Origin: Hymenobacter aranciens
GTDB taxonomy: Bacteria > Bacteroidota > Bacteroidia > Cytophagales > Hymenobacteraceae
DNA: 64,000 nt
NCBI RefSeq assembly: GCF_030580865.1
Contig: NZ_JAUQSY010000004.1
Coordinates: 124,001 to 188,000, forward strand
Direction: 5' to 3'
Shown here: positions 26,848 through 59,906 of the stretch, one piece after another
Position numbering within the stretch: position 1 is the first letter of the stretch
Layout: every line of letters begins with the position of its first letter
Translations under genes and position numbers: made by a program
The notes under the pieces: generated by a model
What the model saw: only the letters and a program-made list of their open reading frames with translations
What the model was told of the DNA's origin: nothing
The model's database searches: none

Positions 26848-29646
26848 TCAGCCCACCGGTGTGATATGCAGCGCCCGATAGTCGGAAGGCGAGATTTGAT
26901 ACCGCCCCTTGAAACTAGTAGAAAAGTAAGAGGGCGAGGAGAAGCCCAGCTGATAGGCCACTTCCGCAATCGTCAGCGAGTCGTCGAGCAGCAGCTGCCG
27001 GGCCTTGGTGAGGCGGATGCTCTGGATAAAGTCGGTGACGCCAGTGCCGAGCACAGCCTTCACCTTGCGGTAGAGCTGCACCCGCGAGATGCCCAGACTG
27101 CGGGCCACGTCTTCCACCGAAAGGTCGGCGCGGGTGAGGTTGGCCTCCACGATGGCCGTGAGGTCGGCCAGGAATTTCTGGTCGACGCGCTGGGGCGGGG
27201 CCACGGTGGCGGTGTCCACGCTCAGCTCGCGGCGGAAATGCTCGCGCTGCCGGGCGCGGTTGGCCAGCAGGGTGCGCAGGCTTTCGAGCAGGAAGGCGGG
27301 GTTGAAGGGCTTGGTGAGGTAGAGGTCGGCGCCGGCCTGCACGCCTTCCACCTGCTGCTCGGGCGCGCCCCGGGCGGTAAGCAACACAATGGGAACGTGC
27401 GAGGTACGCCAATCGCCCTTTAGCCGCGCCACGATTTCGAGGCCGCTGAGGCCGGGCAGCATCACGTCGCACACCACCAGGTCGGGAATTAGCTCGGCGG
27501 CTAGGCGCAGGCCGGTGTCGCCATCGAGGGCCGTGCGCACCTGGAAGTGCGGGCGCAGCTTCTGGGCCAAGAAGGCGTTGACTTCGAGGTTGTCTTCGAT
27601 GATGAGGACCAGCGCGTCGCGGCCCTGGCCGGTGGCAAAGGCCGGTTCGGCCACTTCGGCCGGCTCGGGCAGCGGTCGGGGCAGCTCGTCGTCGGCCAGG
27701 GCCGCGCCGGGGGCAGCTATGGTGGCGGCCGGCGCCAGCAGGGCCTCGGGCAAGGTCAGCGGCAAAGTCACCACGAAGGTGCTACCCTCGCCGGTTTGGG
27801 TGGTGAAAGTGAGCTGGCCCTGGTGCAAGCGGGTGAGGCCCAGCGCCAGCGCCAGCCCCATGCCCGAGCCCTGCGCGCCCGGCTGCTGCCCTTGGTAAAA
27901 CCACTCGAAGATGTGCGCCCGGTCCTGCTCGCTAATGCCGCGCCCGGTGTCTTCCACGCTCACCCGCACGCTGCCCTCGGCCGGCAGCGGCTCGATGCTG
28001 ACGGTGATGATGCCCTGGTCGCGCGTGAATTTCAGGGCGTTGGACAAGAGGTTAAAAAATACCTTGTCAAGAATGTTCACGTCGAAGGACAGGTTTACGG
28101 CGGGCTCGGCGGGCAGGAAGCGCAGGCTAATGCCGCGCTGCCGGACGGGCTTCTCGAACAGGTCCATGATTTCGCGCACGAAGCTCACGAGGTTGCCGGG
28201 CGTGGCCCGCACCGGCATCTTACCCACGTCGATTTTGCGGAAGTCCATGAGCTGGTTTACCAGCTGCAGCAGGCGCTGGGCATTGCGGCGCACCAGCCCC
28301 AGGTCGTGCCGCTGCCCGGCCGAAAGGTCGCTGCCGGGGGCCAGCATCTCCTCCACCGGCCCCAGGATGAGGGTGAGCGGCGTGCGCAGCTCGTGCGAGA
28401 AGTTGGTAAAAAACCGCAACTTAGCCTCAGTTTCGACCCGCGCCTGCTCGGCAAACTCCTGAATCTGGTTGCGTTGGGAGCGGATTTCCTCGTTCTGCCC
28501 TTCCAGCACCCGCGTAATGCGGCGGTTGACGCGCAGGGCGCGCCAGGCCAGCAGCCCCAGTCCGGCCGCAATCAGCAGTGCCACAGCCAGCCCGTACAGC
28601 ACCGTTTGCTGGCTGGCGTAGGTGTCGCGCTGCTGTTGCAGCAGCCGCTGCTGCCGGCGGATATCCTGCTGCTGGTTGGCCAGCTGCTCGGTCTGCATCT
28701 TCATTGTCAGGGCGTTGGTCGAGTCAATGACCATCGTGCCCAGCACGTTCTCCTTAGCATAAAGCTGGTGCTGCAGAATTTTCATGGCCGTGCGAATGGC
28801 CTCCTCTCCACCCGGCGGATAGAGCAGGGTGGCCGTCAGCACCCCATCCTGCACGAACTGAATGCCGCCGTGCGGGCCCGGCAGCCCGTCCACCCCGACG
28901 ACGCGCACGCGGTGGTCCAGCCCCAACTGTTTGCATACCTGGTAGGCGCCCAGCGCCATCCGGTCGTTGTGAGCAAAAATCAGATTCACCTCGGGATGAG
29001 CCCTGAGCACGGCGGGCAGGTTCTGCACCACCGAGGGGCGCTTCCAGTCGCCGTGCACGGGCGTTAATTGGTGTACACCGGGGTAGCTGGCCAGCGCTTT
29101 AACGAGCCCCCGGTGACGGTCTACTGCCGGAGATGCTCCAGCCAAACCCTGAATTTCCAGCACGTTGCCGTGCCCCCGCAGCAGGCTGCCGATGTAGTGA
29201 CCCGCCGCTTCGCCTACCTCTACATTATTGCCTCCCACGTAAGCAGTGTAGAGCTTCGAGGTGGTGCGCCGGTCCAGAATCACCACTGGGATGCCCCGGT
29301 TGAAAACTTCCTCCACTACGGGCGTCACGGGCTCAGCCTCGTTGGCCGATACAATCAGCAAATCAATCCCTTCTTTCAGAAACTCCCGAATCTGCTGCTG
29401 CTGCCGGGTGCTGTTGTCGCGGGCGTCCTTAAGCCGGAAGGTGACGTTGGGATAGAAGCTCAGCTCCTTTTGCATGCCGGCCAGCATGGCCTGCCGCCAA
29501 GCGTCGCTGGTGGTGCACTGCGACAGGCCGATGGTGTAGTGCCGCTCGGGTGGAGTCGCCCATACAGAGACGGCAGAGAGGCATGCAGCTAGAATACTGC
29601 AGTAAAACCACCAGCGGACTACGCCAGCATTAGAGAACATACCCAT
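26848..29646 (-). CDS. Hybrid two-component system regulator with periplasmic sugar-binding sensor
   Basis: 932 aa (ATG at 29646; 29640 is an equally good alternative). N-terminal signal/anchor (10-30), then a LacI-type periplasmic binding protein fold (about 35-310; YTIGLSQCTTSDAWRQAMLAGMQKE, GIPVVILDRR). A coiled coil and a membrane helix (about 350-370) follow, then the histidine kinase (FFTNFSHELRTPLTLIL with the phospho-His near 415, and HATPase motifs DTGRGISEQD and GSGMGLALALGL). A receiver domain (about 680-800, DLVVCDVMLPGLSG) and a C-terminal AraC-type HTH (about 835-932) complete it. The architecture matches B. thetaiotaomicron BT1754, whose sensor binds fructose. It probably activates susC and the operon downstream. 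Confidence 0.93.
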   Translation of the reverse strand: MGMFSNAGVVRWWFYCSILAACLSAVSVWATPPERHYTIGLSQCTTSDAWRQAMLAGMQKELSFYPNVTFRLKDARDNSTRQQQQIREFLKEGIDLLIVSANEAEPVTPVVEEVFNRGIPVVILDRRTTSKLYTAYVGGNNVEVGEAAGHYIGSLLRGHGNVLEIQGLAGASPAVDRHRGLVKALASYPGVHQLTPVHGDWKRPSVVQNLPAVLRAHPEVNLIFAHNDRMALGAYQVCKQLGLDHRVRVVGVDGLPGPHGGIQFVQDGVLTATLLYPPGGEEAIRTAMKILQHQLYAKENVLGTMVIDSTNALTMKMQTEQLANQQQDIRRQQRLLQQQRDTYASQQTVLYGLAVALLIAAGLGLLAWRALRVNRRITRVLEGQNEEIRSQRNQIQEFAEQARVETEAKLRFFTNFSHELRTPLTLILGPVEEMLAPGSDLSAGQRHDLGLVRRNAQRLLQLVNQLMDFRKIDVGKMPVRATPGNLVSFVREIMDLFEKPVRQRGISLRFLPAEPAVNLSFDVNILDKVFFNLLSNALKFTRDQGIITVSIEPLPAEGSVRVSVEDTGRGISEQDRAHIFEWFYQGQQPGAQGSGMGLALALGLTRLHQGQLTFTTQTGEGSTFVVTLPLTLPEALLAPAATIAAPGAALADDELPRPLPEPAEVAEPAFATGQGRDALVLIIEDNLEVNAFLAQKLRPHFQVRTALDGDTGLRLAAELIPDLVVCDVMLPGLSGLEIVARLKGDWRTSHVPIVLLTARGAPEQQVEGVQAGADLYLTKPFNPAFLLESLRTLLANRARQREHFRRELSVDTATVAPPQRVDQKFLADLTAIVEANLTRADLSVEDVARSLGISRVQLYRKVKAVLGTGVTDFIQSIRLTKARQLLLDDSLTIAEVAYQLGFSSPSYFSTSFKGRYQISPSDYRALHITPVG

Positions 29647-44523: not shown

Positions 44524-45804
44524 ATGGAAAACCAATCTTCTGCTCCCGCCGATACCGAAAAAGCCGCTAAGAAGGACGAGCAGCCCGACAAGCCAGCCAA
44601 GGCCGCGCAGTCGGCGCTGGTGAAGCAAGCTAAAGCGTATGTCATCGAATTGTTTGAGCAAGAGCTATCCACCAAGCTCACCTACCATTCACTACGCCAC
44701 ACCGAAAACGTAGTGCGCGAGTGCCGGCTGCTGGCCGTCGATGCCAGGCTCTCGGCTGCCGATACCGAAGCGCTGCTGCTGGCCGCCTGGTTTCACGACA
44801 CTGGCTACATCGACGTTTATGACGGCCACGAATTCAGCTCGATGGAGCGGGCTGGCGCCTGGTTAAAGGAGCATGAAGTTTCTGACGACCGTATTCAGTG
44901 CGTGCAGGATACCATCAAAGCCACGCACCGCGACGAGAATCCGGAAACTGACCTGCAGGAGCTGTTGGTAGATGCCGACATGAGCAACCTAGCCCGCGAA
45001 GACTACCGCTCGAGCGCCGAGCTGCTGCGCACCGAATGGGAAATTGCATTAGGAAAAACCTACACCAACTCTGAGTGGGCCGAGCTGCAGGTAGGCTTCA
45101 TGGCAGCCCACAAGTACCACTCTGAAGCAGGCAAAGCCCGCTACCACGATGCCTTCAAAGCCAACCTGGAGGACCAGCGTGACTACCTGAAAAAGAAGGA
45201 GAAAAAAGCAAAGAAGCAAAAGCAGCAGGAAGAAGGCACGTTTGCCCAGCCCAAACGGGGCATCGAAACGATGTTCCGTACCATGTACAGCAACCATATC
45301 AAGCTGTCGGACATGGCTGATAAGAAGGCCAGCATGATGATTAGTCTCAACGCAGTACTGCTGTCGGTCATCATCACTTACCTTGGTGCTAAAACCTCAT
45401 CTATCGGCCCGACTTTCACTCGCAACCCCATTCTGGCCGTGCCGATGGGTATTCTGCTGCTCACTTCCTTGGGCTCGGTCGTGACGGCCATCCTGTCGGC
45501 CCAGCCCGACGTTACCAGCTTCAAGTGGCTCAAGCGCAGCCCCCAGATTGCCACCAACCGCCGCGTCAATCTGTTGTTTTTCGGCAACTTCACCAAGCTC
45601 AGCCTCGATAATTTCCAGAGTGGCATCCGCGAGCTGATGCGCGGCAAGGATGACCTCTACACCAACATGGTAACCGACGTGTATTATCTCGGCGAAGTGC
45701 TTTCGCGGAAATACGGCCTGCTACGTACCAGTTACACAGTGTTTATGGTGGGGCTGATTCTGACCGTGCTTTCATTTGGCATTGTGCTACTGTATAAGTC
45801 GTAA
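44524..45804 (+). CDS. HD-domain phosphohydrolase with Pycsar-effector-type membrane domain
   Basis: 426 aa. A charged N-terminus is followed by an HD domain (about 50-200): YHSLRHTENVVREC, then AAWFHDTGY with His91-Asp92, and a later LLVDADMSNL Asp. A lysine-rich coiled segment (EDQRDYLKKKEKKAKKQKQQ) leads to the C-terminal membrane module (about 255-426): NHIKLSDMADKKASMMISLNAVLLSVIITY and three further helices, which match the PycTM effector domain of Pycsar anti-phage systems. In known Pycsar systems such effectors respond to cCMP or cUMP; here no pyrimidine cyclase gene is adjacent. It may be an orphan effector or a nucleotide-clearing enzyme. Confidence 0.85.
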   Translation: MENQSSAPADTEKAAKKDEQPDKPAKAAQSALVKQAKAYVIELFEQELSTKLTYHSLRHTENVVRECRLLAVDARLSAADTEALLLAAWFHDTGYIDVYDGHEFSSMERAGAWLKEHEVSDDRIQCVQDTIKATHRDENPETDLQELLVDADMSNLAREDYRSSAELLRTEWEIALGKTYTNSEWAELQVGFMAAHKYHSEAGKARYHDAFKANLEDQRDYLKKKEKKAKKQKQQEEGTFAQPKRGIETMFRTMYSNHIKLSDMADKKASMMISLNAVLLSVIITYLGAKTSSIGPTFTRNPILAVPMGILLLTSLGSVVTAILSAQPDVTSFKWLKRSPQIATNRRVNLLFFGNFTKLSLDNFQSGIRELMRGKDDLYTNMVTDVYYLGEVLSRKYGLLRTSYTVFMVGLILTVLSFGIVLLYKS

Positions 45805-48087: not shown

Positions 48088-50088
48088 ATGAGAATTCCTC
48101 TACTTTCTAATTCATTCTTTGTCAAAGTCCGAAATCGATTGTGGACAGCCTGTGTATTGTTGGGTCTGTTGGGGCCAACAGTCCCCGCTTGGGCCGTGCC
48201 CGAAGACACGGTGAAAGTAAGCCCGGCGCAGCAGGAGCTTTTCCTAACGGACAATTTGTACAGCGTGCTGGAAGACCCTTCGGGCCTTCTCTCTATCCGC
48301 GACATCCGCAGCCCGGAGTGCGACCGTCGGTTTAAGCAGCTCAGCTCCAGCAACCAGCCTCCGAATATCCAGCATGTAAACAGCGCCTACTGGCTACGCT
48401 TAACCCTCCGCCAGCCTCCCACTCAGGCCGAGGCCTGGTACCTGGAATTGTATGATTCGCATACCAGCCGGGCCGTTTTCTACCGCCCCAGCGCGGGTAG
48501 CACTGGGGCTTACGACAGTGTGGCTACCGGCGCGGCCGAGTCGTTCGCCACGCGGCCTCATCCCTACAAGAACTTCCTGTTTGACCTGCCGCCGCGCCCC
48601 GGCCAGACGGTCACTTATTATCTGCGCCTGCACTCCGACACGCGTACCAGCTTCCGGGCTATGCTACACAGCGGACCGGGCCTTATTCCCGAGCTTTCGC
48701 TGCAGTACTGGCTACTGGGAGTATTCTACGGCGTGCTAACCATCATGCTGGTGTACAACCTGTTTCTATTCTTTTTCATTAAAGATTGGTCGCACTTGTA
48801 CTATGTACTGTATGTATTTAGCGGCACGCTGCTGTTTCTATCAGAGGATGGCCTGGGCTTCCAGTATTTTTGGCCTAGCAGCCCGCAGCTTAATCATTTT
48901 ATCAGTGCGGCGGCGCCAGTACTGCTGCTGCTCACCTTCGCTATCTACGCCCGTAGCTTTCTGGAAACAGCCACACGGCTGCCCGGCCTCGATAGAGTAG
49001 GGCGCTGGGTAGTAGGCATTAGCACAGCGCTGCTGGTTATCGATTCGGCCCTCATACATTCGGGCTTCAGCTTCTGGCTATACCTAATACCCTACTGCTT
49101 AATCTACTACGCCGCCATGAAATCATGGCACACAGGGCTTAAGCAGGCCAGCTACATATTGCTGGCCCATGCGCTGGTAGGCGGCAGCCTGGTATTCCTC
49201 ATCTCGCGCAAACTGGGGATTGAGTTCATTAACAATGCTTACACAGTGTACAGCCTCAACGCAGCGTTTGTGCTGGAAGTAGTTATTCTGAGCTACGCAC
49301 TGAGCGAGAAAATCAAGGGAATTCTGGACACCACACTCCTTACGCAACGCCGCCTGCTTAAGCAGTTGCGCAAAAAGCACCAGGCGCAGGACCAACTAGT
49401 AGAGCAGCTGCAGGAAAACCAGACGCTGAAAGACCAGCTCAATACCGAGCTGGAAGCCCTAGTAACCCGTCGCACCGAAGAGCTTCGACAGCAAAACGAT
49501 ACTGTAGCTGCCCAGAACCGGGAGTTACTGGAGGCCAACGGCCTGTTAGCCTTACAGTCGGCCGCCATCGAAAAGCTGAACAGCGAGCTCAGCCGCGACC
49601 TGCACGCCGTAAAAGCGGCCCGGATTCAGGAGCCCACCAAAGAGGTCGATTTTGGCGAATTCAGCCAGATTTACCCGGATAAAGATGCGTGTTTAAGCTA
49701 CTTGGCTGATTTAAAGTGGGCTCACGGCTACCAGTGCCGTAAGTGTGGCCACGAGAAGAGCTGCGACGCCCGCGAGCCCTACGCCCGGCGTTGCACCCGC
49801 TGCCGCTACGTGGAATCGGCCACGGCCGGCACGTTGCTACAGAAGTGTAAGTTTTCCATCGTAAAGGCTTTATACGCAGTTTTCCTGCTCCATGCCCACA
49901 AGGGCAACTACTCCGTGTCGGAGTTGGCGCGCGTACTGGAGCTGCGGCAGGCCACCAGCTGGGCATTTGCGCAAAAGGTGCTGGCAGCTTTGCAGCGGCG
50001 GCGCCACGCGGTTAATTACCAGGATGGCGAACCCTGGACCTTCGTACTACTGGATGCGGTAGCCGAGCTGGAGGAAGCCGAATCCTGA
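48088..50088 (+). CDS. 7TMR-DISM membrane receptor with C-terminal IS1595-type zinc-ribbon/HTH
   Basis: 666 aa. A signal peptide (to about 36) is followed by an extracellular 7TMR-DISM-E2-type jelly roll (about 50-195; PNIQHVNSAYWLRLTL), then seven membrane helices (about 205-415; YWLLGVFYGVLTIMLVYNLFLFFFIKD is the DISM hallmark) and a long coiled coil (about 425-520). The C-terminus (535-645) holds CRKC (Cys550, Cys553) and CTRC (Cys569, Cys572), then ESATAGTLLQKCKFSIVKALYAVFLL and a helical part ARVLELRQATSWAFAQKVL. That part matches the zinc ribbon plus helix-turn-helix at the front of IS1595-family transposases; the DDE nuclease is absent. A membrane receptor with a transposon-derived, probably DNA-binding output is inferred. 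It lies just upstream of the glucan locus. Confidence 0.82.
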   Translation: MRIPLLSNSFFVKVRNRLWTACVLLGLLGPTVPAWAVPEDTVKVSPAQQELFLTDNLYSVLEDPSGLLSIRDIRSPECDRRFKQLSSSNQPPNIQHVNSAYWLRLTLRQPPTQAEAWYLELYDSHTSRAVFYRPSAGSTGAYDSVATGAAESFATRPHPYKNFLFDLPPRPGQTVTYYLRLHSDTRTSFRAMLHSGPGLIPELSLQYWLLGVFYGVLTIMLVYNLFLFFFIKDWSHLYYVLYVFSGTLLFLSEDGLGFQYFWPSSPQLNHFISAAAPVLLLLTFAIYARSFLETATRLPGLDRVGRWVVGISTALLVIDSALIHSGFSFWLYLIPYCLIYYAAMKSWHTGLKQASYILLAHALVGGSLVFLISRKLGIEFINNAYTVYSLNAAFVLEVVILSYALSEKIKGILDTTLLTQRRLLKQLRKKHQAQDQLVEQLQENQTLKDQLNTELEALVTRRTEELRQQNDTVAAQNRELLEANGLLALQSAAIEKLNSELSRDLHAVKAARIQEPTKEVDFGEFSQIYPDKDACLSYLADLKWAHGYQCRKCGHEKSCDAREPYARRCTRCRYVESATAGTLLQKCKFSIVKALYAVFLLHAHKGNYSVSELARVLELRQATSWAFAQKVLAALQRRRHAVNYQDGEPWTFVLLDAVAELEEAES

Positions 50089-50163
50089 ACTGGCAATCAT
50101 CATTACGGGACGTGAACGGAGCAGAGTAGGCACCTACTACACCAGCTTTTTATCAGTGAACCG

Positions 50164-50173
50164 CAAACGTTTG
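50164..50173. promoter_or_regulatory. LacI-type palindromic site upstream of the GH3 gene
   Basis: CAAACGTTTG is a perfect ten-base palindrome in the gap between the receptor and the GH3 gene, about 250 bases before the -7 box. It is related to sites at 6733, 10612, 26498 and 46233. Confidence 0.35.
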
Positions 50174-50235
50174 GGGCCCAGAATAAGATTTGTGGTCTGA
50201 TTGAAAAAAATCTTGCGGAAAACGCACTTTTTTTC

Positions 50236-50423
50236 ATTGTTTTTTAAGCCATCCGCCGTTTTCCGCAAAACGGCCATTCGAGGCTAGCCGGGCAATAAAA
50301 CGTGTTTTTTAGCGTGTGCGGCAAGCGTACAACATTTGTGCTATTAAAGCGAAAAACGGCCTTTTCAAGGCTCTAGGCGCATTTTTCACACTTGCATTTG
50401 CTAAACACAACGCTCTACTTTTG
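50236..50423 (+). promoter_or_regulatory. Extended upstream region of the glucan locus; includes -7 box
   Basis: It contains ATTGTTTTTTA (50236), a hairpin CCGTTTT-CCGC-AAAACGG (50256-50273), GCGTGTGCGGCAAGCGTACA (50312-50331), CTTGCATTTGCTAAACA near 50390 and the -7 box TACTTTTG (50416-50423). The blocks match 45993-46190 in order, with the 104-base spacing to the -7 box kept. The box places transcription start shortly before the GH3 ATG at 50442. The rest of the 353-base gap shows no gene. Confidence 0.6.
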
Positions 50424-50441: not shown

Positions 50442-52940
50442 ATGACTGCCCTCCCCTCGGTTCTTACTTCTGCTTCGGCAGCTTCCTCACGGTTTCGCCC
50501 GGCAACGTTCCCGGTGCGTTCGGCCTGGCGGGCGCTGTGGGTAGCCTTGCCCTTACTGGGCGCCTGCCAGCGCCATGCTGTGCCAATGGCTGCTACAACC
50601 AGTCAGCCTACGGCTGAGCTACCCGCTGCCAACTTTAGCCCGCGCGTAAAGCAGCTGCTGGCCCAAATGACGCTGGAGGAGAAAATCGGGCAGATGACAC
50701 AGCTCGATATATCGACCATCAACACTACCGGTGCCGCCAAGGACGTTTTCCTGGATTCCGCCAAAACTACAGCGTTGGTGCGTGATTTCCACGTCGGTTC
50801 GTTCATCAATGGTGAGGCCGTGCCGGCGGCGCAGTGGCTGCGCTATTCGATGGCATTGCAGCGCATTACTATGCGCGAGTCGCGGTTGAAAATCCCGATG
50901 ATTTACGGCATCGACCACATGCACGGCGCCAGCTACGTGTCGGGCACGGCCATTTTTCCGCACAACATCAACCTTGGTGCTACCTTCAACCCAGCATTGG
51001 CCCAGCAGGCCGCTCGCGCTACCGTGCTGGAATCGGCCGACTTGGGCCACCACTGGATTTTCGCACCGGTGCAGGACCTGGGCGTGAACGTGTACTGGCC
51101 GCGCCTGTACGAAACCTTCGGCGAAGACCCGCTGGTGGCCTCGCGCATGGGCGAGGCTTACGTCAAGGAAATTCAAGGCAATACCGAAATTGCGCCCTAC
51201 AAAGTAGCAGCTTGCGGCAAGCACTTTCTGGGCTACTCGGACCCGCGCAATGGCTGGGACCGCACCAATGCCCTCATTCCGGCCCAGCGCCTGCAGGAGT
51301 TTTTCCGGCCGCCGTTCCAGGCCATCGTGGATGCAGGCGTGAAGAGCGTGATGATAAACTCCGGCGAAATCAACGGAGAGCCGGTGCACGCTTCTAAAGC
51401 GATTCTGACCGACCTGCTGCGGCGGCAGATGGGCTTCAAGGGCGTAGCCGTGACTGACTGGGAAGACATAAACCGCTTGGTACGGGTGCAGAAAGTAGCT
51501 GAAAGCGAGAAGGAAGCCACCTTTATGGCCATCGACGCGGGTATCGACGTGGCGATGACGCCCTACAATACCAACTTCTGCCGCATCATGAAGGAACTGG
51601 TGCAGGAAGGGCGCCTGACTGAGGCCCGCGTGACGCTGTCGGCGGGCCGGATGCTGCAGATGAAGGAGGATATCGGCCTGTTTGATAATCCCATGCCGCG
51701 GGCCGACCGGCTCAGTCGCGTGGGCGACCCGGCCTTGAAAGCCCAAGCGGTGGAAGCCGCCCGGCAGTCCATCGTACTGCTGAAAAACGAGCAAAACGTA
51801 CTGCCGCTGCTGCCGTCGCGCATGAAGCGCCTGCTGGTAGTGGGGCCTTCAGCCGAGTCGCGGGCCAACCTGGCGGGCGGCTGGACGCTGGCCTGGCAGG
51901 GCCGCCCGGAGACGGGCTACTCGGCAGACATTCCGACGCTGGTGGAAGCACTGCGTAAGGAGTATCCCGGCGTCCAGATTGAAACCCTGCCCTACTACGA
52001 CAAAACTGGCAAGCTCAGCCTTGCAGGTATTGAAGCGGCGGCTAAAAAAGCTGATGCGGTAGTGCTGGCGCTGGGCGAACGGCCTTATACCGAAGGCCTG
52101 GGCAATGCCTCCGACCTGACCTTACCCGAAGACCAACAGCAGCTGGTGCGGACGGCGCAGGCCGGCGGGCGCCCCACGGTGCTGGTGATGATTGGCGGGC
52201 GGCCGAACATTATTCGTAGCGTAGCCGACAAAGCCAGCGCCATTATGTGGGCGGGGCTGCCTGGCTTCGGCGGCGGCACGGCGATAGCCGAAATCATCAG
52301 CGGCAAGGCGAATCCCAGCGGCAAGCTGCCGTTTACTTACCCGCTGTTTGCCGGGCACATCTCTAACTACCACCACGACAACAACGAAAACAGCCTCGAT
52401 TTGAGCGACTTTGGCGTAGGCTTCGAGCAGCGGGGCGTGAAATACAAGAGCACCATGCTCACCGAGTACGGTGAGGGCTTGAGTTACACCACTTACGCTT
52501 ATTCGAGCCTGAAGCTGAGCGACTCGGTGCTTACCAACCCGTCGGCGCGCCTGCGGGCTACGGTGCGGGTAGCCAATACCGGCAGCCGCGCCGGGCAGGA
52601 GGCCGTGCTGTGGTTCCTGACCGACGAGGTGGGCCGCATCACCCGGCCGGTGCGCCTGCTGAAACACTTTGAAAAGCAGGAGCTAGCCACCGGCCAGAGC
52701 CGCGAATTTACCTTCGACATCGATGTGATGCGCGACCTGAGCTACCCCAACGGTGAAGGCGTGGCGCAACTGGAAGACGGCTGGTTTACGCTCCGCGTGG
52801 GCTCACAAACGGCCCGTTTCCGCTACCAGGGCGCGGCCAGCGCCCGCAGCGCCGCCCAGCCGGGCAAGGCTACCGGTGCCGCCTCGACCGGTACTGGCAG
52901 CAATTCGGCTTCGACCAAAACGACTTCTAACGCCAAGTAA
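50442..52940 (+). CDS. GH3 beta-glucosidase lipoprotein
   Basis: 832 aa from the ATG at 50442; the frame is open from 50316 but that upstream part covers the promoter. A long signal ends in LPLLGAC (lipobox). GH3 N-domain: LAQMTLEEKIGQMTQLD, MIYGIDHMHGASYV, CGKHFLGYSDPRNGWDR, and FKGVAVTDWEDI with the nucleophile Asp. C-domain: RQSIVLLKNEQNVLPLL and PSGKLPFTYP; then a fibronectin-III-like end and a Ser/Thr/Ala-rich tail (from about 800). It would release glucose from beta-glucan oligosaccharides at the cell surface or in the periplasm. First gene of the SusCD-GH16 locus. Confidence 0.93.
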   Translation: MTALPSVLTSASAASSRFRPATFPVRSAWRALWVALPLLGACQRHAVPMAATTSQPTAELPAANFSPRVKQLLAQMTLEEKIGQMTQLDISTINTTGAAKDVFLDSAKTTALVRDFHVGSFINGEAVPAAQWLRYSMALQRITMRESRLKIPMIYGIDHMHGASYVSGTAIFPHNINLGATFNPALAQQAARATVLESADLGHHWIFAPVQDLGVNVYWPRLYETFGEDPLVASRMGEAYVKEIQGNTEIAPYKVAACGKHFLGYSDPRNGWDRTNALIPAQRLQEFFRPPFQAIVDAGVKSVMINSGEINGEPVHASKAILTDLLRRQMGFKGVAVTDWEDINRLVRVQKVAESEKEATFMAIDAGIDVAMTPYNTNFCRIMKELVQEGRLTEARVTLSAGRMLQMKEDIGLFDNPMPRADRLSRVGDPALKAQAVEAARQSIVLLKNEQNVLPLLPSRMKRLLVVGPSAESRANLAGGWTLAWQGRPETGYSADIPTLVEALRKEYPGVQIETLPYYDKTGKLSLAGIEAAAKKADAVVLALGERPYTEGLGNASDLTLPEDQQQLVRTAQAGGRPTVLVMIGGRPNIIRSVADKASAIMWAGLPGFGGGTAIAEIISGKANPSGKLPFTYPLFAGHISNYHHDNNENSLDLSDFGVGFEQRGVKYKSTMLTEYGEGLSYTTYAYSSLKLSDSVLTNPSARLRATVRVANTGSRAGQEAVLWFLTDEVGRITRPVRLLKHFEKQELATGQSREFTFDIDVMRDLSYPNGEGVAQLEDGWFTLRVGSQTARFRYQGAASARSAAQPGKATGAASTGTGSNSASTKTTSNAK

Positions 52941-52998: not shown

Positions 52999-55900
52999 AT
53001 GAAGCGAAAGTTTTACCTCATTGCGCGGCTGTCGCGCACGGCGGTGCTGCTAGCCTGCGCTGCCCCGCTGGCTGCCGCTGCCGCCCCAGGTGTGGCTCCC
53101 CGCCTGGCCACGCTGCGCCTCACGGCCGAAGTGCCCGTGAGCGGGCGCGTGACCAGCGCCGACGGCGTGGGGCTGCCCGGCGTGACGGTGCTGGTGCGCG
53201 GCACCACCATCGGCACGGCGACGAACAGCGACGGCACTTTCTCGCTGAATGCCCCGGCAGGCAGCACGCTAACATTCAGCTTTGTGGGCTACGCCACGCA
53301 GACTGCTCCGGTGAGTGAAAATGGCAATACCTCCTTGACTATCACCCTGCAGGAAGATTTGCAGAAGCTGAATGAAGTGGTAGTGGTCGGCTACGGTACG
53401 CAGCAGCGTCAGGACGTGACCGGGGCCGTGGCCTCGGTTTCGGGCAAGGATGTGGCTTCGCAGCCAGTGTCGGACCCAACCCAGGCTATCCAGGGCCGGG
53501 CGGCTGGCGTGACTGTGACGCAGAACTCGGGCGCACCGGGCGGAGCGGGCGGCACGTCGGTGCGGGTGCGCGGCGTGACCTCGGCTGGCAACAATGCGCC
53601 GCTGTACGTGGTGGATGGCTACCCGCTGCCTTCGAACGACGAGAACCAGCTCAACGCCATCAATCCTAACGACATCGAGAGCATTGATGTACTGAAGGAT
53701 GCTTCTGCTACAGCCATCTACGGACTGCGAGCGGCCAATGGCGTGGTCATCATCACCACTAAGCGGGGCAAAACGGGCAGCAGTAGCATCAATGTGGATG
53801 CTTACCGGGGCGTTCAGACCGCGTGGCGGCAGCTTGACCTGCTGAATGCCAAGGAGTACGCCACCATCAACAACGAAAGCCGGCTGGCGCAGGGAACAAC
53901 GGCTCCCCTGGACAACCTGCGCGACCCCAGCAAGCTGGGCGAGGGCACCGACTGGCAGAAAGCCGTCTTCCGGCCTACGGCCGTGATTCAGAGCTATAAC
54001 TTGTCGGCACTGGGTGGCTCGGAGAAGATGCACTACGCCACCACGGCGGGTTATTTCCAGCAGGATGGTACCATCATTGGCTCGCGCTTCGAGCGCTTCA
54101 CGCTGCGCCTGAATGGCGACGTGCAGCTGAGCAAACGCGTGAAAATCGGCAACAGCCTGTCGCTGACTCATCTGAACGACCGGCAGGTAAACACGGGCGG
54201 CGACGAGTTTGGGGTGCTGAACAACGTGCTACAGGCCCCGCCCACCATTCCGGTGTACCGGCCCGACGGCACCTGGTATGAGCCCCGCGACGTGGACAAC
54301 TACGCCGAGCCCAACCCGGTGCTGCAATCCCTCATCACGAACGCAAACTTTACCCGTAACCGGGTATTGACCACGATGTTTGCCGAGGTGGAAGTACTAA
54401 AGGGCCTGCGTGCCCGCACCAACGTGGGAGCCGACCTGATTTTCGATTACGGCCGGGCTTTCACCCCTCAGTTGGGCGCTAATTCGCCGCGTAACGGCCC
54501 CGGCACGGCCGGCTCCAACTACTACACGAATTACAACCCTAGCTACCTCATTGAGAACACGCTGACCTATGACCACTTGTTTGCTGACAAGCATCAGTTA
54601 ACGCTGCTGGCGGGGCAGTCGGCACAGGAATTTAACTACAGCAACCTGCAGGGCGGCCGGGGCGGCTACACCAGCAACCTGCTGCAGCAGCTTAACAATG
54701 GGCCAATTAACGACCGGCTGGGTAACTCGGGCACCAGCAGCCGGCAGCGGCTGGCCAGCTATTTTGGCCGGGTAAACTATGAGTTTGCGGGCAAATACCT
54801 GCTGACGGCCACGGCCCGCTACGACGGCACGTCGGCCTTTGCGCTGGGCCGGAAGTTTGGCTTCTTCCCCGGGGCCTCGGTGGGCTGGCGTATTTCGGAA
54901 GAGAACTTCCTGCGCGGCAACACTAAAATAAGTGAGCTGAAGCTCCGGGCTGGCTACGGCAAAGTGGGCAACCCGTTGAACGCCGGACAATTTGCTTACC
55001 TGGCCACGATAAACTCGGGCATCACCTATCCCTTCGGCTCCGATGGGACCATCAACATTGGGGCGGCGCCTACCCGGGGGCAGAACCTGAACCTGCAATG
55101 GGAAGACAACGTGCAGTTTAACCTGGGTCTGGACATGGGCTTCCTGGGCGGCCGCATCAGCGCGAACGTGGATGTATATGACCGCCGCTCGCCCAACCTC
55201 ATCAGCGCGGTACCGCCGACGCTGGTGTCGGGCACCTACGAGGCACTGCCGACCAACGCCATTTCGTCGTATAACCGGGGCCTCGACCTGGCCGTGACTA
55301 CCCGCAACATCGTGGGAGCCGAGCGCGGCCTGAACTGGACGACAACGCTGGTATTCTCCACGTTTACCAACCGCATTGACGACCTCAACGGCGCTATTCC
55401 CTTCAATGGGCTGGCCAACCGCAACGGCGTGGCCATTGTACGCTTCGACGAGGGCCAGCCCTTCGGCTCGTTCTACGGCTACGTGGCCGATGGCCTGTTC
55501 CAGACGCAGGCCGACCTCGATAACCACGCCACCCAGAACGGTGCGGCGCCCGGCGACATTCGCTTTAAGGACCTCAACGGTGACAAGCAGATTACCGACC
55601 TCGACCGGACCTTTATCGGCAACCCCAACCCCGACTTCACCTACGGCCTGACCAACACCGTGAGCTGGAAGGGCTTCGACCTGAACCTGTTCCTGCAGGG
55701 CTCGCAGGGCAACGACGTGTACAACCTCAACCGGGTGTACACCGAAGGCGGCCTGTATAACAACAGCAACTCCAGCACCCGCGTGCTGGGCCGCTGGACG
55801 GGCGCCGGCACCAGCAACGACGTACCCCGCGCCATTGCCGGCGACCCCAACCAGAACCTGCGGGTGAGCAGCTACTTCCTCGAAGATGGCTCCTATATGC

Positions 55901-56112
55901 GCATCAAGCTGCTGACGCTGGGTTACGCCTTGCCCCCCAGCCTGCTCGGCTACATCAGCAGCAAGAGCCTGCGCGTGTACGTGTCGGCCCAGAACCTGCT
56001 GACGCTGACGAAATACTCCGGCTTCGACCCCGAGATTGGGGGCAGCGGCGTCGACCGCGGTATCTACCCGCAGTCGCGGGTGTTCCTGGCCGGCCTCAAC
56101 ATCGGGTTTTAA
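52999..56112 (+). CDS. SusC/RagA TonB-linked outer-membrane transporter (glucan locus)
   Basis: 1037 aa from the ATG at 52999 (MKRKFYLIARLSRTAVLLACAAPLAAAAAP); the longer open frame from 52753 overlaps the GH3 gene out of frame. Carboxypeptidase-like domain (about 45-125, VSGRVTSADGVGLPGVTVLVRG), plug (LNEVVVVGYGTQQRQDVTGAV; SIDVLKDASATAIYGLRAANGVVIITTK), barrel, and C-terminal VFLAGLNIGF. It would import beta-glucan oligosaccharides bound by SusD. It follows GH3 by 58 bases with no promoter box in between, so it is likely in the same operon. Confidence 0.95.
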   Translation: MKRKFYLIARLSRTAVLLACAAPLAAAAAPGVAPRLATLRLTAEVPVSGRVTSADGVGLPGVTVLVRGTTIGTATNSDGTFSLNAPAGSTLTFSFVGYATQTAPVSENGNTSLTITLQEDLQKLNEVVVVGYGTQQRQDVTGAVASVSGKDVASQPVSDPTQAIQGRAAGVTVTQNSGAPGGAGGTSVRVRGVTSAGNNAPLYVVDGYPLPSNDENQLNAINPNDIESIDVLKDASATAIYGLRAANGVVIITTKRGKTGSSSINVDAYRGVQTAWRQLDLLNAKEYATINNESRLAQGTTAPLDNLRDPSKLGEGTDWQKAVFRPTAVIQSYNLSALGGSEKMHYATTAGYFQQDGTIIGSRFERFTLRLNGDVQLSKRVKIGNSLSLTHLNDRQVNTGGDEFGVLNNVLQAPPTIPVYRPDGTWYEPRDVDNYAEPNPVLQSLITNANFTRNRVLTTMFAEVEVLKGLRARTNVGADLIFDYGRAFTPQLGANSPRNGPGTAGSNYYTNYNPSYLIENTLTYDHLFADKHQLTLLAGQSAQEFNYSNLQGGRGGYTSNLLQQLNNGPINDRLGNSGTSSRQRLASYFGRVNYEFAGKYLLTATARYDGTSAFALGRKFGFFPGASVGWRISEENFLRGNTKISELKLRAGYGKVGNPLNAGQFAYLATINSGITYPFGSDGTINIGAAPTRGQNLNLQWEDNVQFNLGLDMGFLGGRISANVDVYDRRSPNLISAVPPTLVSGTYEALPTNAISSYNRGLDLAVTTRNIVGAERGLNWTTTLVFSTFTNRIDDLNGAIPFNGLANRNGVAIVRFDEGQPFGSFYGYVADGLFQTQADLDNHATQNGAAPGDIRFKDLNGDKQITDLDRTFIGNPNPDFTYGLTNTVSWKGFDLNLFLQGSQGNDVYNLNRVYTEGGLYNNSNSSTRVLGRWTGAGTSNDVPRAIAGDPNQNLRVSSYFLEDGSYMRIKLLTLGYALPPSLLGYISSKSLRVYVSAQNLLTLTKYSGFDPEIGGSGVDRGIYPQSRVFLAGLNIGF

Positions 56113-56148: not shown

Positions 56149-57687
56149 ATGAAATTCTCTGCTAAAGTTATTGCCGCCTTGTCGATGAGCCTGCTCGCGG
56201 GCTGCGGCGAAAAATTCCTCGATGAGTCGCCCCGTGACCAGCTCACGACGGGCAACTTCTACCAAAACGAAACGGATGCCATTCAGGCCACCAATGCCGT
56301 CTACGCCGAGCTTAGCCGCGGCGGGCAATATAACAAGGCGCTGTGGGGCATCGGCGACATCATGTCGGATAACTCGAATACCGGCGGCGGCGGCGGCGGC
56401 GACGGCGACTACGCCGTGCAGCTCGACAACTTCACCATCCCGTCGAGCAACGACCTGATTACCCGCCTCTGGGGTGGCTGTTACGTGGGCATCGGCCGGG
56501 CCAACCTAGTGACGGACCGCGTGCCGGGCATCAGCAACATGAACCCTGCCGTTAAGCAGCGCTGCCTGGGCGAGGCGCAGTTTCTGCGCGCCAAATACTA
56601 CTTCGACCTGGTACGGGCCTACGGCGATGTGCCGCTGCTGACCAAGGCCCCCGTGGGCCCCAACGACGCCCTGATTCCGCGCACGCCGGCTGCTCAGGTG
56701 TATGCTCAGATTGAGAAAGACCTGCAGGACGCCTTCACCAACCTGCCCGACAGCTACAGCGGCGGCGACCTGGGCCGGGCCACGCGCTGGGCCGCCCGCG
56801 GCCTGCTGGCCAAAGTGTACCTCACCGAAAACAAGATGACCGAGGCAGCGGCCGCCGCCAAGAGCGTTATCGAAGACAGCCCGCATCAGCTGTGGACCAA
56901 CTACGGCGACAACTTCAAGGTGACCAACGAGAACGGCCAAGAGTCGCTGTTTGAGGTGCAGTACATTAGCGGCCGCAACGAGTTTATTTTTGACGGGCTG
57001 GGCTTCGTGGGCAACGAGTTTTTTGCGCCGCGCTTCCAGAACCTGGTGCCCCAGGGGGGCTACGGCTTCAACGTGCCCGAACCCAACTTTGTGGATGGTT
57101 ATGAAAACGGTGACCGCCGCCGCGACGTGACCATCTGGAAACCCGGCGACGCGTATCCGGCCGGCAGCAGCCCTTCGGTGCAGCCTCCGTCGCTGGCGGG
57201 CTCGCCCTACGGCTACAACTGCAAGAAGTGGTTTGTAGGCAAGGTGAATACCAACATCTGGGACTCGGAGCTGAACTTCCCGGTGCTGCGCCTGGCCGAA
57301 GTGTACCTCATTGCGGCTGAGGCCACTGGACCTACGCCCGCCGGCTTCCGCTACCTCAACATTGTGCGGCGGCGGGCCTTTGGCGAAAACTTCACCGCCA
57401 ACCCCATCTACCCCGGCCACCCCGACTCGCTGGCTGTGCGCGTGCAGCCACACGACCTCAACCCCAACAACACCTCCTCCGCCGCCTTCCCCGACGCTGT
57501 GCTGCGCGAGCGTCGCTACGAGCTGGCCTTCGAAGACGACCGCTGGTTTGACCTGAAGCGCACCAACAAGCTCATCACTAATGCTCATTTGATTTCCAAG
57601 GGAATCAAGCCGTTTCATGTGCTGTTGCCCGTTCCGCAGTCGGAACGCGACGCCAACCCCAACCTCACGCAAAACCAGGGCTACTAG
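56149..57687 (+). CDS. SusD/RagB family outer-membrane lipoprotein (glucan locus)
   Basis: 512 aa; lipoprotein signal ending LLAGC (Cys19) then GEKFLDESPRDQLTTGNFYQNETDAIQATNAVYAEL, the SusD opening. Conserved segments include RCLGEAQFLRAKYYFDLVRAYGDVPLL, FPVLRLAEVYLIAAEATG, and RERRYELAFEDDRWFDLKR with PVPQSERDANPNL at the end. It is the glycan-binding lid of the SusC channel upstream (36 bases apart). Shorter than the fructan SusD (575 aa), as expected for different subgroups. Confidence 0.95.
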   Translation: MKFSAKVIAALSMSLLAGCGEKFLDESPRDQLTTGNFYQNETDAIQATNAVYAELSRGGQYNKALWGIGDIMSDNSNTGGGGGGDGDYAVQLDNFTIPSSNDLITRLWGGCYVGIGRANLVTDRVPGISNMNPAVKQRCLGEAQFLRAKYYFDLVRAYGDVPLLTKAPVGPNDALIPRTPAAQVYAQIEKDLQDAFTNLPDSYSGGDLGRATRWAARGLLAKVYLTENKMTEAAAAAKSVIEDSPHQLWTNYGDNFKVTNENGQESLFEVQYISGRNEFIFDGLGFVGNEFFAPRFQNLVPQGGYGFNVPEPNFVDGYENGDRRRDVTIWKPGDAYPAGSSPSVQPPSLAGSPYGYNCKKWFVGKVNTNIWDSELNFPVLRLAEVYLIAAEATGPTPAGFRYLNIVRRRAFGENFTANPIYPGHPDSLAVRVQPHDLNPNNTSSAAFPDAVLRERRYELAFEDDRWFDLKRTNKLITNAHLISKGIKPFHVLLPVPQSERDANPNLTQNQGY

Positions 57688-57704: not shown

Positions 57705-58988
57705 ATGCAAGCTTCCTCCCTTTTTCGTACTTCGGCGCTGCTGCTGGCGGTGGGCACGGCCCTACTGGCTGGCTGCCGCGAAGATGAAGTAGACAGCCTC
57801 GAAGGCCCGGCACCCACGGCCGGTTTCACCGTGTCGCTCGATACCACCCAGTTTCCGGTGGTGGCCACCTTCACCAATACCAGCACTGATGGCTTTCTCT
57901 ACCAGTGGGATTTCGGCGATGGCTCGCCGCTGGTATCGGGGCAAAATGTGACCCACACCTACACCCTGCCGCGTAGCTACCAAGTGCGCCTGGTGGTGGC
58001 CGGCCGGGGCGGCACTGGCAATTCGGCGCCCAAGGAAGTTCCCATTCCTTCGCTGTGCGGCAACAACGCCTTTCAGGTGCTAACCAATTGCGGCACCGGC
58101 AACTGGACTCTGTCGGACCAGCCCGGCGCCGTGCAGACGCTGGCGGCCGACGGCACCACGGTGCTGAGCTCGTCGACCGCCCCGTTGCCCGAATGCCAGG
58201 AAGACGACCAGTTCAGCTTCAGCAGCACCTTCAGCTACACCTATGATGGGGGGCTGAGCTGCACGGCAGGTCAGAATTTCAACGGCGTGTCGGACTTTAC
58301 CTTCAGGACCGCTCCAGGCGGCCTCGGGCAGCTGACCCTGACCCGCCGCAGCAGCTTCATCGGCCTGGCCGATACCACCCGCAACCGTACCTACGACATC
58401 ATTGAGGCCACCCCGGCCAACCTGCCGGCTACCAACGCCCGCGTGCGCCTGCGCAGCACCAACGCCGACGGCACCTTCACCGTGATTACGCTGATGCCCC
58501 CCGTGCCGCCTCTGGAGCGCGTGGAGCGTCTACTCACCGGGGGCTCGTCGCGCACCTGGGTACTTGACAACACAGTGGCCGCTACCATTATTGTGGGTAC
58601 GGAGGCGGCCCCGGCCAGCTACTTTGCCGGTGGGGCGCTAGGCAGCCTGCCCGCCTGCCAGGCCGACGACGAGTACACCTTCACCTCGACGCACAACTTC
58701 GTGTACAATGCGAAGGCCGAAACTTTTGTAGCCGGCGTGTATGCTTGCCAGGCACCACGTTCGCTGACTACTACCTATACCTACGGCCCGGCTACCGGGG
58801 CGGGCCTGGCGCAGTTTGTGCTGGCGCCGCGCACGCCCAGCACCCTGCCGCAGCCCTTCATCGGAGCTACCGATGCGGCGGCCGACTTCACCTACCGCAT
58901 CCTGTCTATCAACAGCCGCGAGATGGTAATACGCGGCGGCCGCCCCTCAGCCGACCCGGTGTTCACCATCAAGCTGCGGGTGAAGTAG
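57705..58988 (+). CDS. Surface lipoprotein with PKD domain and two internal repeats (SusE position)
   Basis: 427 aa, lipobox LLAGC (Cys24). Residues about 38-115 are a PKD domain (FTNTSTDGFLYQWDFGDGSPLVSGQNVTHTYTLPRSYQVRL). The remainder is two related repeats (about 120-275 and 280-427), each with C(Q)xDDx(F/Y)xFxSTxxFxY near the start and a closing strand set (TYDIIEAT / TYRILSINSREMVIRGG). It lies 17 bases after susD, the usual place for a surface glycan-binding protein, and PKD domains are common in such proteins. Binding of beta-glucan is inferred from context. Confidence 0.8.
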   Translation: MQASSLFRTSALLLAVGTALLAGCREDEVDSLEGPAPTAGFTVSLDTTQFPVVATFTNTSTDGFLYQWDFGDGSPLVSGQNVTHTYTLPRSYQVRLVVAGRGGTGNSAPKEVPIPSLCGNNAFQVLTNCGTGNWTLSDQPGAVQTLAADGTTVLSSSTAPLPECQEDDQFSFSSTFSYTYDGGLSCTAGQNFNGVSDFTFRTAPGGLGQLTLTRRSSFIGLADTTRNRTYDIIEATPANLPATNARVRLRSTNADGTFTVITLMPPVPPLERVERLLTGGSSRTWVLDNTVAATIIVGTEAAPASYFAGGALGSLPACQADDEYTFTSTHNFVYNAKAETFVAGVYACQAPRSLTTTYTYGPATGAGLAQFVLAPRTPSTLPQPFIGATDAAADFTYRILSINSREMVIRGGRPSADPVFTIKLRVK

Positions 58989-59024
58989 GCTTTTCTCTAA
59001 CATCCCATTCACTACTTGTTTTTT

Positions 59025-59906
59025 ATGAATCAGTTCCGCAATTATTTCCCCTCCACCATGCTAAGCGCTACCACTGTGGTGTTAGGGCTGCTGGCCAGCG
59101 GCTGCACGCAGGAGCCGCCCCGCCCGGAAATCACTGCCACCGAACCGGTGAAAACCGAAGCGACGAACTCGGCCGAAAAGCCACTGGCCGACTACAACGT
59201 GCTGGAGTGGGAGGATGACTTTAACGGCAGCTCGCTCAATGCCCAGAACTGGACCCCCGAGGTGAAGGACGGCTGGTACAACAATGAAAAGCAAGCTACC
59301 ACCAGCGACCGCAGAAACCTGACGGTAACGGGCGGCAACCTTGTGATTACGGCCCTGAAGGAGAACTACAACGGCAAAGCCTACACCTCGGCCCGCATCG
59401 TTACCAAGGGCAACCAGGACTTTCGGTTTGGCCGCATCGACGTGCGGGCCAAGCTGCCCAAGGGCAAGGGCATTTGGCCCGCCATCTGGCTGCTCGGCTC
59501 GAACGACAGCCAGGTGAGCTGGCCCGCCTGCGGCGAGATTGACATCATGGAGCTGAAGGGCAGCAACCCGCAGACCAGCCTCACTGCCCTGCACTTCGGC
59601 AACAGTGTGGCCACCAAGCCGCCGGCGTTGACAAGTGCTTACAGCCTGCCCAACGGCTTGTTTTCCGACGACTTCCACGTTTTCACCCTGGTGCGCAGCC
59701 TCAACAAGATGCGCTTCTACGTGGATAACAACGAATACTTCTCGGCCACGGACAAGGATGTGTCGGTGTATCCGTTCAACAACCCGTTCTACATGATTCT
59801 GAACGTGGCCGTAGGCGGCGACTTCGACGGCGACCCCGATGCCAGCACCGTCTTCCCGCAGCAAATGCTGGTGGACTATGTGAAATACTACAAGTATGCC
59901 GAATAA
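59025..59906 (+). CDS. GH16 endo-beta-glucanase (laminarinase type), lipoprotein
   Basis: 293 aa from the ATG at 59025. Lipoprotein signal (GLLASGC, Cys25). The GH16 jelly roll covers about 60-293: VLEWEDDFNGSSLNAQNW, GRIDVRAKLPKGKGIWPAIWLLG, and the catalytic segment WPACGEIDIMELKG with nucleophile and acid/base Glu in E-I-D-I-M-E. The inserted Met gives the beta-bulge form typical of laminarinases and agarases rather than lichenases. DDFHVFTL and VAVGGDFDGDP complete the fold. It would cut beta-1,3-glucan outside the cell, producing oligosaccharides for SusCD and GH3. Confidence 0.93.
   Translation: MNQFRNYFPSTMLSATTVVLGLLASGCTQEPPRPEITATEPVKTEATNSAEKPLADYNVLEWEDDFNGSSLNAQNWTPEVKDGWYNNEKQATTSDRRNLTVTGGNLVITALKENYNGKAYTSARIVTKGNQDFRFGRIDVRAKLPKGKGIWPAIWLLGSNDSQVSWPACGEIDIMELKGSNPQTSLTALHFGNSVATKPPALTSAYSLPNGLFSDDFHVFTLVRSLNKMRFYVDNNEYFSATDKDVSVYPFNNPFYMILNVAVGGDFDGDPDASTVFPQQMLVDYVKYYKYAE

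Follow-up and report, generated by a model that had tools for sequence, protein, structure and literature searches.

A seven-transmembrane receptor with an IS1595-type zinc-ribbon and helix-turn-helix tail as a likely membrane-bound regulator of beta-glucan genes in Hymenobacter

How might a membrane receptor act on gene expression when its chain ends in the front part of a transposase? The question is raised by a gene at positions 48088 to 50088 of a 64,000-nucleotide stretch of Hymenobacter aranciens DNA (NCBI RefSeq assembly GCF_030580865.1, contig NZ_JAUQSY010000004.1, positions 124,001 to 188,000 of the forward strand), which we call the window. It encodes a receptor of the 7TMR-DISM family next to a polysaccharide utilization locus (PUL), and a first-pass annotation had proposed that it is a one-component membrane regulator with a domesticated IS1595 transposase module as output. 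Our comparative analysis makes it quite likely that this receptor controls a beta-glucan regulon as a one-component regulator held in the membrane; it would bind DNA through this module in response to a putative beta-glucan ligand. The gene and its parts are:

48088..50088, forward strand: receptor gene, 666-amino-acid open reading frame (ORF), 7TMR-DISM sensor with IS1595-type zinc-ribbon/helix-turn-helix (HTH) output
48262..48666, forward strand: periplasmic jelly-roll sensor domain (7TMR-DISMED2, residues 59-193), from Pfam, with strands in the AlphaFold2 model
48706..49308, forward strand: seven-transmembrane domain (7TMR-DISM_7TM, residues 207-407), from Pfam, with helices in the AlphaFold2 model
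49309..49629, forward strand: long cytoplasmic signalling helix/coiled coil, about residues 408-514, from the AlphaFold2 model
49678..49809, forward strand: Cys4 zinc ribbon of IS1595 type (PF12760, residues 531-574; C550, C553, C569, C572), from Pfam, alignment and models
49858..50004, forward strand: HTH, residues 591-639 (helices 591-603, 610-617, 621-639), from the NF033547 match and models

By its sequence the product is a 7TMR-DISM receptor in both the DISMED and the 7TM part, with Pfam matches far over the cut-offs (PF07696 at residues 59-193, E 6.7e-27; PF07695 at residues 207-407, E 1.2e-37). In the AlphaFold2 model a helix spanning residues 384-480 extends the last transmembrane (TM) helix into the cytoplasm and is followed by a helix at 488-514, with pLDDT below 50 at residues 476-507. 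Past the 7TM part, PF12760 was the sole Pfam match at E-values up to 1, with no histidine kinase, GGDEF, EAL or PP2C domain, and the remaining matches of the NCBIfam scan all lay far below their cut-offs. Pfam likewise found no HisKA, HATPase, receiver or AraC HTH domain in the receptor, in contrast to the hybrid two-component system (HTCS) protein encoded at 26848-29646, in which all four are present. Sensor, TM part and a DNA-binding-type domain are found on one polypeptide in both sequence and model.

The tail consists of a zinc ribbon and an HTH domesticated from an IS1595 transposase, as seen in sequence, tree and model. Zn_ribbon_IS1595 (PF12760) matched residues 531-574 with an E-value of 2.3e-6 and 27.9 bits against a curated cut-off of 25.4, and the claim of the first-pass annotation that the output is such a Cys4 ribbon with an HTH, and no kinase or cyclase, withstood this search. 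Residues 587-640 matched the NCBIfam profile of IS1595 transposases (NF033547) over positions 2-56 of its 215; the score of 28.1 bits is far below the cut-off of 75, as expected when the tail has the front part of the profile only. C550, C553, C569 and C572 and many HTH residues were invariant in 16/16 aligned sequences, which included the window's own and one member of another genus with 32% identity. Of the parts that make up an IS1595 transposase, zinc ribbon and HTH are present in the receptor and the DDE domain is absent: aligned to IS1595 transposases, the tail was gapped at the first catalytic motif (VDVDE), and the gene ends cleanly after the HTH, as had been noted before, with its stop codon at 50086-50088. 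Modelled in isolation by AlphaFold2, the tail reached a mean pLDDT of 90.5 and showed two short ribbon strands and three helices arranged as in an HTH.

A tree was built from 98 sequences, comprising tails and the N-termini of transposases; twelve receptor loci had been omitted to limit its size, and near-identical rows were merged. One branch (100/99), present in all 200 bootstrap trees, separated the 79 tails, fused or truncated, from the 19 transposases. With midpoint rooting the fused tails fall inside the transposases of the same order, a placement that depends on this root. The tail shares 48% identity over 112 residues with a transposase of the same family (L035). The genome of the window (L001) itself carries two IS1595-type transposase genes in tandem on contig C23, which belong to different subgroups. 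These genes could suggest that the tail is an inert relic or the fusion artefact of a nearby insertion sequence, the caveat raised in the first-pass annotation, where an artefact of one strain had been envisaged. However, their contig is not that of the receptor, and the tree places them at a distance from the tail. The fused form is found in 103/120 Hymenobacter genomes, with invariant Cys and HTH residues, and over the order, so that we regard this explanation as refuted by conservation and its probability as negligible. Recent capture from the genome's own IS1595 copies was ruled out by the same distance in the tree. A profile of terminal inverted repeats (TIRs) of related IS1595 elements was not enriched downstream of receptor genes, in a scan that covered this profile. 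The fixed neighbourhood of the gene in relatives speaks against mobility.

The receptor with its tail is an old, conserved protein. Within the genus, 105/120 genomes matched the receptor and 103 had the tail, the difference being G064 (a weak paralogue match) and G092 (a match that stops at residue 502); the receptor of G090, split over two contigs, was scored as present. The Cys4 motif was kept in 80/81 re-read loci (the window and the named collection), the exception, L212, stopping at a contig end. An order-wide search gave matches in 242/390 genomes, a tally that also takes in receptors with other outputs; most rows among the matches listed span from the jelly roll into the tail. All three domains were detected in 10/10 diverse members, five of them over the PF12760 cut-off, and in Dyadobacter, Chitinophaga japonensis and Mucilaginibacter aquaedulcis, where a single one exceeds it (6/13 altogether). 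Full-length relatives extend across the Cytophagales and into Chitinophaga and Mucilaginibacter, and a class-wide sample added full-length matches in three further families (f33, f56, f61). Hymenobacter negativus has a second full-length receptor (L042/L213) with 50% identity, near which no SusCD was found.

Downstream of the receptor, a SusC-SusD pair and glycoside hydrolases (GH) on the same strand make up a polysaccharide utilization locus:

50442..52940, forward strand: GH3 gene, likely target; start by inspection (ORF listed from GTG 50316)
52999..56112, forward strand: SusC-type TonB-dependent transporter, likely target; start judged from a signal-like N-terminus (ORF listed from 52753)
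56149..57687, forward strand: SusD, likely target, from the domain scan
57705..58988, forward strand: PKD-domain protein of the locus
59016..59906, forward strand: GH16 of the locus (PF00722, E 1.1e-19)

For GH3, ATG 50442 is the more likely start than GTG 50316 because the ORF from the latter would overlap its own promoter. The adjacency of receptor and locus that the first-pass annotation had pointed out is conserved in relatives, and other 7TMR-DISM proteins with the same tail proved common in related bacteria. A co-directional SusC-SusD pair lay within 5 kb downstream of 38/57 fused receptors, drawn from seven families, compared to 0/20 other 7TMR-DISM loci, all from the Hymenobacter family. 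The stretches read were 11 to 20 kb long; L043-L046 were scored as positive, as orthologous SusC and SusD genes follow that overlapping ORFs had masked in the script, and two loci stand outside the 57, L094, which is at a contig edge and has no recognised tail, and L037, whose tail is lost. By family, the pair was found in 16/17 receptors of the Hymenobacter family, 4/4 of f11, 15/18 of f19 and 3/6 of f18, and in 0/12 of f9, f15 and f20. Seven of the 20 control loci had a lone SusC-like protein about 4 kb off on the opposite strand. In further loci of Hymenobacter and near kin, SusC followed in 62/66, and three of the other four end within 1 kb at a contig end. Persicobacter has TonB receptor, SusD, PKD protein, GH3, GH16 and receptor in one run.

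Receptors without SusCD, for which the tests covered ten neighbours from nine loci plus a partner receptor, often lie near other sugar-related genes, such as divergent GH9 and GH3 genes, a downstream GH18 or PfkB sugar kinase, or a sulfatase; the Flammeovirga receptor has rbsK and a sugar transporter as neighbours. In L218, L219 and L221 (Flavobacteriales and Bacteroidetes metagenome-assembled genomes) the receptor stands right behind a same-strand gene for a protein of 1670-1800 amino acids, a recurring partner other than SusCD. Upstream of the locus in the window, 44524-45804 on the forward strand encodes a protein with an HD domain and, at its C-terminus, a PycTM (Pycsar effector) domain, by sequence a possible anti-phage effector.

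Receptor, SusD gene and the DNA element described below go missing together in Hymenobacter genomes. A SusD orthologue was present in 103/103 tail-bearing genomes compared to 2/17 genomes without the tail (Fisher 2.9e-17, uncorrected for kinship). On a queA tree of 29 genomes, 13 of them selected from those with the tail and 16 from the 17 without it (G097 gave no match), receptor presence or absence changed at least six times, gains and losses being counted alike. The two receptor-less genomes with a SusD match, G093 and G094, show 56-57% identity, a class to which the second SusD copies of other genomes often belong; as the best matches of the tail-bearing G063, G108 and G017 are also found there (52-57%), identity alone cannot settle the orthology of these two. 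In the decayed locus of G092 (L037), both the receptor tail and the genome's SusD are gone, and the receptor frame, read by eye, runs into apparent remains of a GH16 gene.

The intergenic region between receptor and GH3 contains a conserved bipartite element followed by a predicted promoter:

50238..50250, forward strand: putative operator half-site 1, TGT-N4-TA type, from conservation
50315..50327, forward strand: putative operator half-site 2, a direct repeat of TGT-N4-NAAGYG type, in a wider conserved stretch (50314-50329)
50416..50423, forward strand: predicted -7 promoter box of Bacteroidota type, 102 bp past the point where the second element starts (the median in the genus is also 102)

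The box was assigned by TAnnTTTG, which we take to be the Bacteroidota -7 consensus. Conservation placed both half-sites, 77 bp apart in the window, and the box within 50236-50423, the stretch that the first-pass annotation had put forward for binding by the tail. In the regions downstream of the receptor at 65 loci of Hymenobacter and near kin, with expectations from dinucleotide shuffles, TGTTTTTTA (half-site 1) occurred in 60/65 (1.5 expected) and the second element, GTGY-N2-6-AAGYGTA, in 51/65 (0.1 expected). The 43 loci with both elements and a -7 box showed rigid spacing, with medians of 75 bp from first to second element and 102 bp from second element to box. In 66 regions upstream of the receptor neither element was found on the forward strand, and the first element occurred on the reverse strand in two. 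Under a strict pattern the halves are direct repeats of TGT-N4-TA, 76 bp apart in 15/23 close pairs and 75 or 77 bp in the rest; ten further strict pairs in Hymenobacter lie at 101-102 bp. Motif discovery in 10 Hymenobacter-type loci returned the AAAAAACA element, and in the 22 loci outside Hymenobacter alone a weak AT-rich motif only.

Two other sources of conservation were considered and rejected. RNA structure in 50089-50320 gave a z-score of -0.46. An operator derived from IS1595 TIRs was tried with a 16-bp profile built from eight ends of five elements and scanned in 30 of the 65 Hymenobacter-type and 41 other intergenic regions; it scored no better than shuffles (means of 4.6 vs 5.2 in the Hymenobacter-type and 5.4 vs 5.8 in the other regions). 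A LacI/cre-like palindrome of the GCAAACGNTTGC type lies upstream of half-site 1 in 11/65 Hymenobacter-type loci (0.0 expected), and one was seen by eye in the window upstream of 50238. It may represent a second, catabolite-type input.

Across 120 whole Hymenobacter genomes the bipartite pattern yielded 147 sites in 89 genomes, all of them tail-bearing (89/103), compared to 0/17 genomes without the tail and 0/120 for the reversed control. Just downstream of the receptor lie 79 of these sites, and 68 lie elsewhere; the latter occur in 44/103 tail-bearing compared to 0/17 other genomes (Fisher 2.5e-4, again uncorrected for kinship). Sixty of the 68 were read, 20 first (following the list, except that three entries were skipped and a later one was included) and then 40 including those three; the eight left unread include one on contig 172 of G107, which probably belongs to the receptor itself and is separated from it by a contig break. 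Taking the longest same-strand ORF starting within 700 bp as downstream gene, with the second 40 sites classed by BLAST to the first 20 rather than by Pfam, we counted GH16 32 times, a sugar-isomerase-like gene 17 times, GH5 seven times, GH30 three times and a PKD/Ig protein once; the sites come from related genomes, hence orthologous genes recur. Thus 59/60 distal copies precede a GH16, GH5, GH30 or sugar-isomerase-like gene, and the PKD/Ig case is the second site of the window's own genome. GH16, GH30 and GH3 are the enzymes expected for a laminarin-type beta-1,3/1,6-glucan. The sugar-isomerase-like gene encodes a xylose-isomerase-like TIM barrel and has the oxidoreductase-like N-terminal motif YDAIVIGSGISGG nearby in 17/17 cases (L324-L326, L329, L331, L333, L336 and ten of L372-L406), which suggests that oxidised glucosides are handled as part of the regulon.

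A half-site 1 profile trained on Hymenobacter-type loci and applied downstream of receptors outside the genus scored 7.2 compared to 2.4 in shuffles at 23 loci with SusCD (p 3e-5), the best half-site lying on the forward strand in 17, and 0.5 compared to 1.3 at 18 loci without SusCD (p 0.75); kinship is uncorrected in these statistics as well. Since the Hymenobacter profile is enriched outside the genus where SusCD follows, this argues, at the level of sequence, that the half-site goes with the receptor family and not with one genus alone. Repeats 65-68 bp apart were seen in L114, L110, L111 and L118.

These data have to be weighed against the main rival, in which the element is bound by another, soluble regulator (e.g. 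of LacI or AraC type) encoded elsewhere, while the receptor acts indirectly and its tail serves as a protein-protein module. Such a regulator would account for the LacI/cre-like palindrome in the same intergenic region, and zinc ribbons are able to contact proteins in addition to DNA. Yet the palindrome occurs in a minority of loci only, the element is missing from 17/17 genomes without the tail, the half-site recurs beside relatives outside the genus, and the HTH derives from that end of a transposase which binds DNA. Moreover, no regulator domain was found in eight scanned window proteins around the locus, the ninth being the HTCS of the other PUL. We therefore consider a soluble regulator of this kind unlikely.

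Architecture, linkage and co-loss support the one-component membrane regulator that the first-pass annotation had proposed, and we favour direct control of the element by the receptor. In this mechanism the periplasmic jelly roll would sense a beta-glucan breakdown product, and the 7TM bundle and the long helix, judging from the model, would relay the signal through the membrane. The tail would bind the two direct-repeat half-sites, TGT-N4-TAAGYG about 76 bp apart and upstream of the promoter, and a dimer held by the long helix may bridge both sites on one face of the DNA. Once bound, it would presumably activate the GH3-SusCD-GH16 operon and, in many relatives, the distal GH16, GH5, GH30 and sugar-isomerase-like genes too; no kinase, receiver or second protein would be required. 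A variant holds that signal-triggered proteolysis frees the tail from the membrane, so that it acts as a soluble factor like other membrane-tethered transcription factors. The low-confidence break of the model between long helix and tail, at residues 476-507, would offer a place for cleavage, but this stretch is conserved between aligned orthologues; a cleavage motif was sought by reading only. Release by proteolysis seems to us less probable still than a soluble regulator.

Several observations weigh against direct, tail-mediated regulation. Support for DNA binding by the tail is comparative. Foldseek with the tail model gave no match under an E-value of 1e-3 and hence no close solved relative; sequence searches of solved structures returned weak rows only (E 0.03 and above), and the best VIA-align matches were homeodomain and Lrp-type chains at middling Z-scores of 4.4-5.5 over 46-57 residues, all four rows at Z of at least 5 being homeodomains. 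Since TIRs are not enriched in the intergenic region, the ancestral DNA target of IS1595 is not recognised there. Nineteen of the 57 fused receptors lack SusCD downstream, including all 12 of f9, f15 and f20, some SusCD-less receptors lie near genes with no known sugar link (VWA, OEP, acyl ligase, HipA), and the control loci come from a narrower range of families than the test loci. The exact bipartite pattern is missing from 14/103 tail-bearing Hymenobacter genomes. Genomes that lack the receptor may also have lost the target genes, and the absence of sites in them is therefore no proof of direct contact. Finally, outside Hymenobacter the best pair lay at 60-80 bp in 9/28 loci compared to 21% in shuffles, which is not clearly above expectation and makes the direct-repeat spacing firm in Hymenobacter only.

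The tail is not confined to 7TMR-DISM receptors. Four long proteins with a Reg_prop/Y_Y_Y sensor, the HTCS-like periplasmic part, end in the same type of tail, two of the four over the PF12760 cut-off:

L298:6506-9709: Reg_prop/Y_Y_Y sensor ending in IS1595 tail
L299:3769-6906: Reg_prop/Y_Y_Y sensor ending in IS1595 tail
L300:8329-11385: Reg_prop/Y_Y_Y sensor ending in IS1595 tail
L301:5891-8893: Reg_prop/Y_Y_Y sensor ending in IS1595 tail

In all four the tail stands in place of the kinase, receiver and AraC domains, and in L298 SusC and SusD follow. A 307-amino-acid protein (L317:687-1607) combines hydrophobic segments, a coiled coil and the same tail without 7TMR-DISM domains; unless truncated, it is a possible third architecture. 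The simplest reading is a single domestication, after which the tail was reused as an output module. On balance we hold it probable, with somewhat more reserve than for the receptor of the window, that these proteins form an undescribed class of direct-acting membrane regulators, in which a portable IS1595-derived output is joined to two or more sensors that are unrelated (7TMR-DISM and Reg_prop/Y_Y_Y) and serves genes of glycan use in Cytophagales and neighbouring orders. In Hymenobacter, a receptor dimer at the membrane would bridge the paired direct repeats, which are spaced by about seven helical turns, and in this way govern a beta-glucan regulon.

PUL regulation in Bacteroidota is usually described in terms of HTCS (PMC10766802), and further of ECF-sigma/anti-sigma pairs and a few other regulators. 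If our interpretation is correct, a widespread direct-acting class would be added to these, a likely regulator would be named for beta-glucan use in Hymenobacter and for many Cyclobacteriaceae-type PULs, and there would be a clean example of a signalling output that arose from the DNA-binding module of a bacterial transposase. With operator and regulon predicted, this can be tested at once.

The 7TMR-DISM family was reportedly defined by Anantharaman and Aravind in 2003, and its outputs are, to our knowledge, kinases, GGDEF/EAL domains, cyclases and phosphatases. The window receptor shares the DISMED2 jelly roll and 7TM core with RetS, LadS, SagS and RgsP and differs from them in its output of IS1595 zinc ribbon and HTH. 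IS1595-family transposases have the same order of zinc ribbon and HTH, whereas the receptor lacks the DDE domain, has a fixed neighbourhood and carries a tail that falls on a branch of its own. CadC/ToxR-type membrane one-component regulators, with a single TM helix and, at the N-terminus, a winged helix of OmpR type, likewise unite a sensor, a membrane part and a DNA-binding domain on one polypeptide; in the window receptor, by contrast, the DNA-binding part is C-terminal, zinc-containing and placed behind seven TM helices. HTCS of Bacteroidota PULs are also glycan-responsive membrane regulators encoded with carbohydrate-use genes (PMC10766802). The four tail-bearing relatives have the HTCS sensor type, and the window receptor has a single zinc-ribbon/HTH tail in place of HisKA, HATPase, receiver and AraC HTH. 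The first-pass annotation knew of no described regulator of this build. A literature search found, among the papers listed, none describing an IS1595-tailed 7TMR-DISM receptor, with an early mention in the family-defining paper possible, and in this respect the claim stands; the general plan, however, has a precedent in a 7TMR-DISM receptor joined to a ChiS-family DNA-binding domain in one chain (PMC8092284). In the figure legend that presents it, this receptor has a different DNA-binding domain, is placed among proteobacterial genomes and is given no transposase origin. Membrane one-component regulators are already known, and the new part is a transposase-derived output common to two sensor types.

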